A program made the position numbers and the translations under genes. A stretch of DNA of 41,160 bases from an uncultured Clostridia bacterium (GTDB lineage Bacteria > Bacillota > Clostridia > Oscillospirales > Oscillospiraceae): the NCBI GenBank assembly GCA_946625125.1, contig CAMOSU010000008.1:1-41160 (forward strand). The letters are read 5' to 3'. Shown here one piece after another: positions 16,975-22,337 of the stretch (positions within the stretch are counted from its first letter, which is position 1; every line of letters begins with the position of its first letter). The notes below the pieces were generated by a model. It saw only the letters and a list, made by a program, of their open reading frames with translations. It made no database searches and was not told the origin of the DNA.

Positions 16975-18009
16975 ATGTCTGCCTTTGACAGCGCTACCTT
17001 AATGATCACCGGAGGAACCGGCTCCTTCGGCAACACGGTTTTGAAGCATTTTCTCAGCACGGACATCGGGGAGATTCGTATTTTCTCCCGGGATGAGAAA
17101 AAGCAGGACGATATGCGGCATGAGCTCCAGGCCAAATACCCGGACCATGCCAGAAAGGTAAAATTCTATGTGGGTGACGTGCGGGACCCCCGCTCCGTGG
17201 CGGACGCCATGCCCGGGGTGGACTACATCTTTCACGCCGCGGCCCTGAAGCAGGTGCCTTCCTGCGAGTTTTTCCCCATGCAGGCGGTGAAGACCAACGT
17301 GGAGGGAACGGACAATGTGCTCCACGCTGCCATTGACGCCGGGGTGAAGCGGGTGGTCTGCCTGTCCACCGACAAGGCCGCCTATCCCATCAACGCCATG
17401 GGGATCTCCAAGGCCATGATGGAGCACGTCATTTTCGCCAACGCCCGGGTGGCGGCGGAGCGGGGAGGCACCGTCATCTGCTGTACCCGCTATGGCAACG
17501 TCATGTGCTCCCGGGGCTCCGTCATCCCCCTGTTTATCGACCAGATCCGGGCGGGGAATCCCATCACCATCACCAATCCGGACATGACCCGCTTTCTCAT
17601 GAATCTGGACGAGGCCGTGGAGCTGGTGCGCTTTGCCTTCCAGCACGCGGAGCCGGGAGACCTCTTTGTCCAGAAGGCGGACGCCTCCACCATCGGAAAC
17701 CTGGCCAAAGCGGTGCAGCAGCTCTTCGGGGACAGCGGGACCCGGATCATCGGCACCCGCCACGGGGAAAAGCTCTATGAGACCTTAGTAACCCGGGAGG
17801 AACGGCTGCGGGCTGTGGATATGGGGAACTATTTCCGCGTCGCGGCGGACAACCGGGATCTGAACTACGACAAGTTCTTTGTCCAGGGCAAGGTAGAGAC
17901 CCAGTCCGACGAGAGCTATACCTCCTCCAACACCCGTCTTCTGGACGTGGAGGGCGTGGTGAAAAAGCTCCTCACCACCGATTACGTCAAGGAGTGCCTG
18001 GGCCGCTGA
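16975..18009 (+). CDS. capE: UDP-GlcNAc 4,6-dehydratase/5-epimerase (CapE/FnlA/WbjB type)
   Basis: LMITGGTGSFGNTVLKHFLSTDIGEIRIFSRDEKKQDDMRHEL...AALKQVPSCEFFPMQAVKTNVEGTDNV; followed by CapG- and CapF-like genes. Confidence 0.9.
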   Translation: MSAFDSATLMITGGTGSFGNTVLKHFLSTDIGEIRIFSRDEKKQDDMRHELQAKYPDHARKVKFYVGDVRDPRSVADAMPGVDYIFHAAALKQVPSCEFFPMQAVKTNVEGTDNVLHAAIDAGVKRVVCLSTDKAAYPINAMGISKAMMEHVIFANARVAAERGGTVICCTRYGNVMCSRGSVIPLFIDQIRAGNPITITNPDMTRFLMNLDEAVELVRFAFQHAEPGDLFVQKADASTIGNLAKAVQQLFGDSGTRIIGTRHGEKLYETLVTREERLRAVDMGNYFRVAADNRDLNYDKFFVQGKVETQSDESYTSSNTRLLDVEGVVKKLLTTDYVKECLGR

Positions 18010-18030
18010 GCCGGGAGAAAGGAGCAAGCT

Positions 18031-19197
18031 ATGACAGGCTTTCAGAACAACGGGAAGCTGAAGCTTCTGATCATCGTGGGGACCCGGCCGGAGATCATTC
18101 GGCTCTCCACCGTCATCAAGAAATGCCGGATTTACTTCGACACCCTCCTGGCCCACACCGGGCAGAATTACGACTACAACCTCAACGGAGTCTTTTTCAA
18201 GGATCTGGCCCTGGACCCGCCGGAACTCTATCTGGACGCGGTGGGGGAGAACCTGGGGCAGACCATGGGAAACATCATCGCCCGGTCCTATGAGCTGATG
18301 GTTGACATAAAGCCTGACGCTGTGCTGGTGCTGGGGGATACCAACTCCTGTCTCTCCGTCATTGGCGCCAAGCGCCTGCACATTCCCATTTTCCATATGG
18401 AGGCTGGGAACCGCTGCAAGGACGAATGTCTGCCGGAGGAGACCAACCGACGCATTGTGGACATCATTTCCGACGTGAATATGGCCTATTCCGAGCATGC
18501 CCGGCGCTACCTGGCGGACTGCGGCCTGCCCAGGGAGCGGACCTATGTGACGGGCTCTCCCATGGCGGAGGTGCTGCGGGCCAACCTGCCCCAGATTGAA
18601 GCCAGCGACATTCACGCCCGGCTGGGACTGGAAAAGGGCCGCTATATCCTGCTCTCCGCCCATCGGGAGGAGAACATCGACACAGAGAAGAACTTCCAAT
18701 CCCTGTTCACCGCCATCAATACGCTGGCGGAGACCTACGACATGCCGGTGCTCTATTCCTGCCACCCCCGCTCCGCCAAGCGGCTGGAGGCCAGCGGCTT
18801 CCGGCTGGACCCCCGGGTGATCCGCCATGAGCCTCTGGGCTTCCATGACTACAACTGCCTGCAAATGAACGCCTTCGCGGTGGTCAGCGACTCCGGCACT
18901 TTGCCGGAGGAGAGCAGCTTCTTTACCTCCCTGGGCAAGCCCTTTCCCGCGGTTTGCGTCCGTACCAGCACCGAGCGCCCAGAGGCCCTGGATAAGGGCT
19001 GCTTCGTCCTGGCGGGCATCGACAGCAGGGGACTGCTTCAGGCGGTGCGTACCGCCGTGGATATGGTGCGGAACGGAGACAACGGCATTCCCGTGCCGGA
19101 CTATGTGGACGAAAACGTCTCCGACAAGGTGGTAAAGCTGATTCAGAGCTACACCGGCGTGGTAAACAAGATGGTCTGGCGGAAGGAGAGCCTATGA
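18031..19197 (+). CDS. capG: UDP-N-acetylglucosamine 2-epimerase-family protein (CapG/FnlC/WbjD type)
   Basis: LLIIVGTRPEIIRLSTVIKKC...LLAHTGQNYDYNLNGVFF...LGDTNSCLSVIGAKRLHIPIFHMEAGNRCKDECLPEETNRRIVD...SDSGTLPEES. Confidence 0.92.
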   Translation: MTGFQNNGKLKLLIIVGTRPEIIRLSTVIKKCRIYFDTLLAHTGQNYDYNLNGVFFKDLALDPPELYLDAVGENLGQTMGNIIARSYELMVDIKPDAVLVLGDTNSCLSVIGAKRLHIPIFHMEAGNRCKDECLPEETNRRIVDIISDVNMAYSEHARRYLADCGLPRERTYVTGSPMAEVLRANLPQIEASDIHARLGLEKGRYILLSAHREENIDTEKNFQSLFTAINTLAETYDMPVLYSCHPRSAKRLEASGFRLDPRVIRHEPLGFHDYNCLQMNAFAVVSDSGTLPEESSFFTSLGKPFPAVCVRTSTERPEALDKGCFVLAGIDSRGLLQAVRTAVDMVRNGDNGIPVPDYVDENVSDKVVKLIQSYTGVVNKMVWRKESL

Positions 19198-20393
19198 ATA
19201 TTCTCATCACCGGCGCCAAGGGCTTTGTGGGCCGGAATCTCGTTGAAAATCTCAAGGCCATCCGGGACGGCAAGAACCGGACCCGGCCGGGCATTCAGAT
19301 TGACCGGATCTGGGAATACGATCTGGACAGCCCCAGAGCCATGCTGGAGGAGGGCTGCCGGGAAGCGGACTTTGTCTTCCACCTGGCGGGAGTGAACCGT
19401 CCCCAGGACCCGGCGGAGTTTCAGCGGGGGAACTTTGGCTTCTCTTCGGAGCTGCTGGAGCTTCTGAGGGCGGCGGGGAATCCCTGTCCCGTGATGCTCA
19501 GCTCCTCGGTACAGGCCAGTCTGGCGGGGCGCTTCGGGGACTCCCCCTACGGCCGCTCCAAGCGGGCGGGGGAGGAGCTGTTTTTTCAATACGCCCGGGA
19601 AACCGGAGCAAGGGTGCTGGTTTACCGCTTCCCCAATCTGGCGGGAAAGTGGGTCCGGCCCAACTATAACTCCGCCGTGGGAACCTTCTGTCACAACATT
19701 GCCCGGGATCTGCCCATCACCGTCAACGATCCCAGCGTGGAGCTGGAGCTGCTGTTCATCGACGATCTGCTGGAGGCCCTGCTGGACGCCCTGGAGGGAA
19801 GGGAGCAGCGCTGTGACTACGAGGGCCTGGAGCCCATTGTCAACGAGGACGGACCTTACTGTCTGGCCCCCGTCACCCACAGAGCCACTCTTGGCCGGAT
19901 TGTGGAGCTGCTGCGCAGCTTCCATGACCAGCCGGACACGCTGCTCATGCCTGCCATCCCGGCGGGTTCCCTGGAGAAGAAGCTCTACTCCATGTACCTG
20001 TCCTATCTGCCCAGGGAGAAGGTGGCCTTTCCGCTGAAGCAGAACACGGACGTTCGGGGCAGCTTTACCGAGCTGCTGAAGACCGCCGATCACGGCCAGT
20101 TCTCCGTGAATATCTCCAAGCCCGGCATTACCAAGGGGCAGCACTGGCACAACTCCAAGTGGGAGTTCTTCATCGTGGTCTCCGGTCACGGCCTGATCCA
20201 GGAGCGAAAGCTGGGGACGGAGGATATTCTGGAATTTGAGGTCAGCGGAGAACAGCCCCAGGCGGTGCACATGCTCCCGGGTTACACCCACAATATCATC
20301 AATCTCAGCGAAAAAGAAAACCTCGTCACCCTGATGTGGGCCAACGAGATCTTTGACCCGGCAAAGCCGGACACCTTTTTTGAACCCGTATAA
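19194..20393 (+). CDS. capF: CapF/FnlB/WbjC bifunctional UDP-sugar reductase with C-terminal cupin
   Basis: N-terminal NILITGAKGFVGRNLVENL; C-terminal cupin ...KQNTDVRGSFTELLKTADHGQFSVNISKPGITKGQHWHNSKWEFFIVVSGHG; ATGA overlap with the upstream gene. Confidence 0.93.
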   Translation: MNILITGAKGFVGRNLVENLKAIRDGKNRTRPGIQIDRIWEYDLDSPRAMLEEGCREADFVFHLAGVNRPQDPAEFQRGNFGFSSELLELLRAAGNPCPVMLSSSVQASLAGRFGDSPYGRSKRAGEELFFQYARETGARVLVYRFPNLAGKWVRPNYNSAVGTFCHNIARDLPITVNDPSVELELLFIDDLLEALLDALEGREQRCDYEGLEPIVNEDGPYCLAPVTHRATLGRIVELLRSFHDQPDTLLMPAIPAGSLEKKLYSMYLSYLPREKVAFPLKQNTDVRGSFTELLKTADHGQFSVNISKPGITKGQHWHNSKWEFFIVVSGHGLIQERKLGTEDILEFEVSGEQPQAVHMLPGYTHNIINLSEKENLVTLMWANEIFDPAKPDTFFEPV

Positions 20394-20429
20394 AGAAACA
20401 ACTTCCGGCAAAAACGGAGGCATCAAGAC

Positions 20430-21401
20430 ATGGAAAGCAAAAAGACAATTGACCCCTCGGACATTCTCGTTACAGAGCAGCTCACGGCCTTGGTGGCGGA
20501 AACCAACGCCATGAAGGAGGACGGCTTCTGCTTTATTCTGGGCGCCGGGGCCTCCCGGGAGTCGGAGATTCCCACGGGCAACGAGCTGGAACGCCGCTGG
20601 ATGGACTGTCTCATGGGGGAGAAGGACGACCTCTATACGAAAAGAATGGACCCGGAGGCCACCCGGAGGCTGGCGGAGCAGCTTCTTCAAGAGGGAACGG
20701 AGGAGAATCGAAAGCTGTTTCACGAGTTTGAGGAGATCCACTCCGCCTGGGAAAGCGCAAAGGCCGCCAACAGCCCCATTCCCAGCAAATACTACTCGGA
20801 CATCTACCGGCTTCGCTTCCACCCGGATTTCAAACGGGGCCACCGCTATCTAGAGCAGAGCATGAAGGGCAAGGAGCCCAGCATCGGCTACCACATCCTT
20901 GCCATGATTCTGAGTCAGGTTGAGCGGATCAATTTAGTGATCACCACCAACTTCGACAGTCTCCTGGAGGACACCCTGTTCCTTTACGGCGAGCAAAGGT
21001 CCATGGTGGCCGGGCATGAATCCCTGGCCCCCTTTATCAACCTGAACCGCTCCCTGCCCATCGTGGCGAAGATCCATCGGAGCCTGTACTATGAGCCTGT
21101 GAACACCCCGGACGCCAGGCTGCCCCGGGCGTGGATTGATCTGCTCAACGACGCCTTCAACCGTTACATTCCCATTGTGGTGGGCTACGGCGGGGGAGAC
21201 CAGAGCCTTATGGCCTTCCTCACCGACGAGCACACCAGCTTTCCCAGGGGCTTCTACTGGTGTTATGTGGAAGCGGAGCACCCCGGAGGAGACATCGAAG
21301 CCCTGGTACTGGAAAAAGGCGGCCATTTCGTATCCATCCAGGGCTTCGACAGCCTGATGGTGGAGCTGGGAAAGGAGCTGCTAGGAGTAAAGAAGATTTA
21401 A
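20430..21401 (+). CDS. SIR2-like domain protein (candidate NADase)
   Basis: GFCFILGAGASRESEIPTGNELERRW (GAGAS), NLVITTNFDSLLEDTLFL (TTNxD), PIVAKIHRSLYYE (catalytic-His region), IVVGYGGGDQSLMAFL; same frame as the downstream TPR ORF. Confidence 0.85.
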   Translation: MESKKTIDPSDILVTEQLTALVAETNAMKEDGFCFILGAGASRESEIPTGNELERRWMDCLMGEKDDLYTKRMDPEATRRLAEQLLQEGTEENRKLFHEFEEIHSAWESAKAANSPIPSKYYSDIYRLRFHPDFKRGHRYLEQSMKGKEPSIGYHILAMILSQVERINLVITTNFDSLLEDTLFLYGEQRSMVAGHESLAPFINLNRSLPIVAKIHRSLYYEPVNTPDARLPRAWIDLLNDAFNRYIPIVVGYGGGDQSLMAFLTDEHTSFPRGFYWCYVEAEHPGGDIEALVLEKGGHFVSIQGFDSLMVELGKELLGVKKI

Positions 21402-21410
21402 CCCAACGCT

Positions 21411-22085
21411 GTGGCAGAACTCCTCAGAGGACGAACCGAATCCAGGCTGGGCGCCTACGCGGATCGCTGGAGCAGCTTCGATCTGGATCGCCCGGGGCCG
21501 CGGAAGGAGACTGAGCCCCTGCGAGAAGCGGAGGAGGCAGAGACCGGAAAGCGGAAGAAAAAGCTGACGCCGTGGGATTACTATGACCGTGGTTTCAGCA
21601 AGAAAAAAACCGGGGACATAAAAGCCGCGATTGAGGATTACACGAAGGCCATCGAGCTGAATCCCTCCTTCGCCGAGGCCTACAGCAGAAGAGGGAATGC
21701 CTATAAAGTGTCCAAAAAACCGGAAGAAGCCATTCAGGATTACAACAAGGCCATCGAATTGAAACGGGATTACGCGCCTGCCTACAACAATCGGGGAGCC
21801 GCTTACATTGATCTACATAACTACAAGCTGGCAATTCAGGATTGCAGCAAGTCCATTGAGTTGAATCCGGATTATGCCATAGCCTATCAAAACCGAGGTG
21901 TTGCTAATTATTGGCTCGGCAGATACTTTGACGCAAATCAAGACTACAACAAAGCGATCGAATTAGAGCCGGATTATACCCTTGCCTATGAAAGCCGGGC
22001 GATTCTTTACCGGAAGATGGGAAAAAAACAGTTAGCGGAGATAGACGAAGCAAAAGCGGCGGAGCTTAAAAGTCAACAAGACTGA
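21411..22085 (+). CDS. Tetratricopeptide repeat protein (possible C-terminal half of a SIR2-TPR protein)
   Basis: Roughly five 34-aa TPR units (e.g. YNKAIELKRDYAPAYNNRGAAYIDLHNYKLAIQDCSKSIELNPDYAIAYQNRG); GTG at 21411 with no close Shine-Dalgarno; in frame with 20430-21401. Confidence 0.8.
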   Translation: MAELLRGRTESRLGAYADRWSSFDLDRPGPRKETEPLREAEEAETGKRKKKLTPWDYYDRGFSKKKTGDIKAAIEDYTKAIELNPSFAEAYSRRGNAYKVSKKPEEAIQDYNKAIELKRDYAPAYNNRGAAYIDLHNYKLAIQDCSKSIELNPDYAIAYQNRGVANYWLGRYFDANQDYNKAIELEPDYTLAYESRAILYRKMGKKQLAEIDEAKAAELKSQQD

Positions 22086-22103: not shown

Positions 22104-22289
22104 ATACTATTATCCGATAAAACGCTTTAAAAAGATTTGCGAGGCAGATTTGTGCCAGACGAGGCGGAGGACGCAGGCGGGCTTGGCGCCCGGCAAGGAT
22201 GACAACGAAGTATGGCACAATTCCTGCCGGAACAGATTAAAGGTTTCTATGGGATTTCAGTATTAAATGGTTTTATTGGATAATAGTAT
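22104..22289. mobile_element. MITE-like element with 27-bp terminal inverted repeats and internal self-complementarity
   Basis: Left ATACTATTATCCGATAAAACGCTTTAA (22104-22130) versus reverse complement of right end ATACTATTATCCAATAAAACCATTTAA (22263-22289): 24/27 identical; nested TTGTGCCA/TGGCACAA (22150-22157/22213-22220) and apex CGGGC-TTGGC-GCCCG (22178-22192); no ORF. Confidence 0.65.
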
Positions 22290-22299
22290 GAGCCAGGAC

Positions 22300-22337
22300 A
22301 ACACGAAAGCCCCGACGGCCGTCGGGGCTTTCGTGTT
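22300..22337. terminator. 38-bp perfect palindrome, probable bidirectional terminator between convergent genes
   Basis: AACACGAAAGCCCCGACGGCCGTCGGGGCTTTCGTGTT, GC-rich core with no mismatches, 25 bp from the 3' end of the minus-strand CDS at 22362. Confidence 0.75.

Follow-up and report, generated by a model that had tools for sequence, protein, structure and literature searches.

SIR2_2-type NADase domains occur at the N-terminus of several antiphage proteins, such as DSR1, DSR2, ThsA and other SIR2_2 antiphage sirtuins, where they are followed by a C-terminal regulatory part (PMC12700824, PMC11087589). In the SPARSA system, a Sir2 protein with a C-terminal APAZ region works together with a short Argonaute, and N142 and H186 of its representative GsSir2 form the catalytic dyad needed for NAD+ hydrolysis (PMC10781750). 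Avs5 is a SIR2-STAND protein whose C-terminal TPR/Sel1 repeats are thought to sense a phage protein and to keep the SIR2 inactive (PMC12931631). The window analyzed here, a stretch of 41,160 nucleotides from an uncultured Clostridia bacterium (contig CAMOSU010000008.1 of assembly GCA_946625125.1), encodes a SIR2_2-type domain and a TPR array in a single reading frame that is interrupted by one TAA codon (Table 1). It resembles DSR1/DSR2 and ThsA in having an N-terminal SIR2_2 domain and a C-terminal, putatively regulatory part, but the C-terminal parts of those proteins are of other kinds (SLOG in ThsA), and we know of no TPR array of the kind seen here in DSR1, DSR2 or ThsA.

The SIR2 half is matched by Pfam SIR2_2 (1.4e-06) and carries the motifs GAGAS, TTNFD (with N174) and KIHR (with H216). 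Its nearest solved relative by sequence profile is the SPARSA Sir2 (PDB 8jkz/8in8, 1.4e-21), which is also the one relevant SIR2 match in a fold search that otherwise returned mostly TPR matches. N174 and H216 align with N142 and H186 of GsSir2, i.e., the same Asn-His dyad is present and intact at this locus, and the domain is full length, with 39-51% identity to its relatives across the domain. Judged by the dyad and by the GAG and TTNFD motifs, the SIR2 half belongs with the SIR2_2 antiphage NADases, and we predict that it is an NADase with a role in protection against phage. SPARSA proteins have a C-terminal APAZ and act with a short Argonaute, whereas the C-terminal part here consists of TPR repeats with no fused Argonaute, and the flanks encode sugar-nucleotide enzymes and a nucleotidyltransferase; the locus is therefore not a SPARSA system. 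The likeness to Avs5 is that of a SIR2 effector probably under the control of C-terminal helical repeats (PMC12931631). However, Avs5 is a far longer protein with a STAND NTPase between the SIR2 and the repeats, whereas the locus has no STAND, and with a linker of only about 60 residues and no NTPase match it does not group with Avs5. The PADLOC models PDC-S65 and Aga_SIR2 match the SIR2 region with E-values of 1e-14 to 4e-31, covering essentially the SIR2 part only, and no model covering the SIR2-TPR architecture was found in PADLOC or NCBIfam.

An in-frame stop between two conserved domains

Translation of the frame at 20430-22085 gives 323 residues, a single TAA and a further 227 residues that end with a TGA at 22085, in agreement with the preliminary description of the SIR2 and TPR ORFs as one frame broken by a single stop. 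Neighboring genes are in equal phase by chance in one case out of three, and the equal phase of the two ORFs is thus weak evidence when taken alone. The 227-codon open run was obtained in none of 2000 composition shuffles of that stretch and is matched by Pfam TPR_1 (3.5e-37), and hence we consider it to be real coding sequence. There is no good start for a second protein: no in-frame ATG follows the TAA before 22017, and the only plausible candidate, a GTG, has no Shine-Dalgarno sequence nearby. The AGGAG upstream of it lies inside the SIR2 ORF, as had been noted earlier, and is too distant at 23 nt to serve as its Shine-Dalgarno.

Table 1. Features of the SIR2-TPR locus and its surroundings (window coordinates)
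Feature	Coordinates	Strand	Basis
Three-gene cassette for UDP-sugar (FucNAc-type) biosynthesis, conserved	16975..20393	+	
Shine-Dalgarno GGAGG, 9 nt 5' of the SIR2 ATG	20416..20420	+	sequence
SIR2 ORF, 323 aa, with SIR2_2-type (putative NADase) domain	20430..21401	+	translation, Pfam
AGGAG within the SIR2 ORF, 23 nt from the GTG at 21411	21383..21387	+	sequence
In-frame TAA where SIR2 meets the linker, position 324 of the read-through protein	21399..21401	+	alignment, AlphaFold2 model
Conserved linker; helix 325-349 retains R339 and Y343	21402..21566	+	alignment, model
GTG, sole plausible start for TPR as a protein of its own, 9 nt beyond the stop, no Shine-Dalgarno	21411..21413	+	
Five TPR repeats (four strong, the C-terminal one weaker); C-terminal end normal for the family	21567..22082	+	
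MITE-like repeat, 186 bp, with 27-nt terminal inverted repeats (89% complementary), just 3' of the TPR half	22104..22289	.	
Perfect 19-nt inverted repeat, possible transcription terminator	22300..22337	+	

When the locus is aligned with ten intact relatives (11 proteins), the alignment passes through the stop undisrupted. The near-invariant I323, one residue before the stop, and L332, R339 and Y343 after it are all kept, R339 and Y343 being invariant in the 11 proteins, and where this gene has its stop the relatives encode Arg, Ile, Thr, Ser or Gly. An AlphaFold2 model (mean pLDDT 82, pTM 0.57) places the stop in a short loop that connects the last SIR2 helix (residues 306-318) to the linker helix (residues 325-349), and the truncated product would accordingly comprise the whole SIR2 domain with nothing attached.

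Single-chain relatives and genomic surroundings

In searches that covered the genus (23 genomes), the family (401) and the order (394), each matched SIR2 relative occupies a single open frame, 399-1054 codons long, as against open frames of 335 and 227 codons at the locus described here. The close relatives that we translated are SIR2-linker-TPR chains, and the read-through protein is 43-48% identical to the relatives over its whole length. A scan of genome contigs with the single sequence gave no matches, and it was an alignment-based profile scan with the SIR2 half that identified 80 named genome loci and five viral contigs, i.e., 85 loci in all. Past the SIR2 domain, 82 of these stay in frame for 128 residues or more. 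Of the three others, L103 is truncated where its contig ends, and L137 and L158 are broken. The C-terminal continuation scores as TPR at 62 loci. SIR2 and TPR as separate genes were found at none of the 85 loci and in none of the genus, family and order searches, and a stop at the position of the TAA occurs in no relative among the 85 loci and the aligned proteins. The preliminary description had proposed asking whether the homologues are single chains, and had reasoned that homologues consistently encoded as two genes would speak against a fused ancestor; no such arrangement was encountered among the 85 loci.

The family architecture that emerges from these relatives is an N-terminal SIR2_2-type domain followed by a linker helix and then by 2-15 TPR repeats at the C-terminus. 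With a homologous SIR2_2 domain directly followed by a linker and a TPR array, the locus can be assigned to this family by sequence comparison, and it is a broken (split) copy rather than an intact member because its frame is interrupted by the TAA. In a set of SIR2 relatives from Nannocystis (L145, L146, L151-L153 and L155; 783-1015 codons), the C-terminal region gives no TPR score, and thus the SIR2 head is also joined to other tails. Two contigs of one genome (C15 and C60 of G009; loci L006 and L008) carry the same SIR2-TPR relative with identical scores, perhaps as an assembly duplicate.

Other broken copies exist in the family. In L137 (about 99-956), from Clostridiales bacterium VE202-01, which bears no MAG label, a TGA interrupts the frame at a conserved Trp of the SIR2 domain, and L158 (5001-5675), from an uncultured Clostridia MAG, has an in-frame internal deletion that joins the middle of the SIR2 to the C-terminal end and leaves about 225 aa. 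Thus, loss by point mutation or deletion recurs in the family. Recurrent loss is as expected of a costly self-toxic effector, and three broken copies are too few to speak of an excess.

The gene begins 37 nt past the sugar-nucleotide cassette, which is conserved in part of the genus. Among the four genomes compared, DNA similarity stops at the last codons of the cassette, and the SIR2-TPR gene is therefore best described as a variable insertion behind it. The MITE-like repeat downstream has 18 matches in its own genome including itself, the best of the others being 77-93% identical over most of its length, and a promoter scan found none in the region. In Pseudoflavonifractor sp. 60 (L095, 2182-6728), an intact SIR2-TPR gene is preceded by the PADLOC candidates PDC-S39 and PDC-S02 (DUF1016), a setting that is a small defense island of candidate genes; in the genomes of two other relatives that were inspected, the neighbors are unrelated. 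The surroundings fit a mobile single-gene defense protein, and by analogy with its SIR2_2 relatives and Avs5 a role in defense appears probable.

Origin of the stop codon

We hypothesize, with a probability of roughly 0.63, that the locus is one single-chain SIR2-TPR gene, probably an anti-phage gene of the abortive-infection type carried as variable cargo, which has been split by one nonsense codon. An ancestral SIR2-TPR protein split in this manner was among the options put forward in the preliminary description, and it is strongly supported by the relatives, which form single chains whose alignment runs through the stop. In the intact protein, the TPR part would sense a phage-made or phage-altered protein, or drive oligomerization, and either event would switch on the SIR2 NADase, which in turn would drain NAD+ and halt the infected cell. 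The stop would leave a complete but uncoupled SIR2 domain that has lost its sensor or scaffold, little or no TPR protein would be made, and defense would be lost.

The TPR half shows no sign of decay. Its five repeats score 33.7 bits each on average, a value inside the range of the family, its mean identity to relatives (0.47) is typical for that region, and neither a further stop nor a frameshift is present. About 5.5% of random substitutions in this half would introduce a stop. Given this undecayed state, either the stop arose recently, or the TPR half remains in use, or the living population does not carry the TAA. No closely related strain carrying the SIR2-TPR locus was found. GC3 is 0.78 in the SIR2 half and drops to 0.55 in the TPR part (21567-22082), as compared with 0.74 in the same-genus relative L002, and such a drop could reflect recombination, decay or relaxed selection; however, the relatives L014 and L025 have values similar to the low figure, and hence it is at best an equivocal sign of decay or recombination. 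Some observations count against a simple split. In the model the stop lies exactly at the domain boundary, where a split would be least damaging; the two halves could in principle reassociate; and the absence of further lesions in the TPR half means that the loss must be recent or the half still in use.

The genomic background of the stop was assessed with a screen of stretches of the same genome totaling 811 kb, using a coding model trained on Pfam-supported genes, which yielded 44 same-frame coding neighbors parted by one stop. A Shine-Dalgarno start lies within 15 codons in 35 of these, and the SIR2/TPR pair is among the nine that have none; several of the other eight resemble ordinary gene ends, with a terminator-type hairpin or an ATG just past the stop. 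Interrupted genes like this one are thus rare in the genome, and there is no sign that TAA is recoded more generally. An error of sequencing or assembly, or a MAG consensus that reflects a minority strain, would leave an intact gene in the population, and we regard this as unlikely. It is in keeping with a draft, evidently metagenome-assembled genome (79% complete, 170 contigs) and with a gene that is intact on either side of the TAA and undecayed in its TPR half, but an in-frame substitution to TAA is less usual as an assembly error than an indel, the screen did not return a crowd of similar split genes, and L137 provides a real nonsense allele in the same family, from the genome of an isolate.

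A functional two-piece system, in which the SIR2 protein ends at the TAA and reinitiation at the GTG yields a separate TPR partner that binds it, would profit from the short distance between stop and GTG, from a stop placed in a loop such that both pieces could fold according to the model, and from the open and well-conserved TPR half. Against it, the two parts are separate genes in none of the relatives at the 85 loci or in the genus, family and order searches, the GTG lacks the Shine-Dalgarno that most same-frame neighbors have, and a start at this codon would cut into the conserved linker. Reinitiation this near a stop is possible in bacteria, and for that reason we grant the two-piece system a small but real share of the probability. 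The two-protein option of the preliminary description is therefore not supported as the natural arrangement of the family, with none of the relatives searched showing it and a poor start, while coupled translation at this particular locus keeps that same small share. It is rather doubtful that this lineage has turned the single chain into a termination-reinitiation pair, with a SIR2 effector and a TPR sensor made at different levels from one mRNA.

Programmed readthrough of the stop, yielding a short product (SIR2) alongside a long one (SIR2-TPR), is very improbable. The shared frame, the lack of any other stop and the C that follows the TAA are compatible with it, but TAA, generally the least leaky stop codon, is a poor choice for readthrough, and the local RNA folds no better than its shuffles (z 0.64), with no unusual structure near the stop. 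Neither an ochre nor any other suppressor was present among the 30 tRNAs found in this incomplete genome, no known RNA element was detected at the site (Rfam gave sub-threshold matches only), and, as none of the relatives examined has a stop here, the conserved stop followed by coding continuation that marks programmed readthrough is not seen. This option of the preliminary description thus gained no positive support. The two-state output that it had envisaged likewise has nothing in its favor beyond the stop itself, since readthrough is unsupported, none of the relatives searched has a two-gene arrangement and the start available downstream is poor. The likeliest origin of the stop is a recent inactivating mutation of the ordinary kind, not a specialized switch with two outputs.

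Thus, the two ORFs are to be annotated as one disrupted SIR2-TPR protein and not as a two-gene system. The case is ordinary in kind, apart from the small chance of a functional split two-piece form. A side result that may be more useful is the intact SIR2-TPR family itself, for which we found no dedicated PADLOC or NCBIfam model and whose members have been broken more than once. This family is broad and its intact members come mostly from Clostridia; SIR2 relatives also occur in other phyla, on a few plasmids and on viral contigs.
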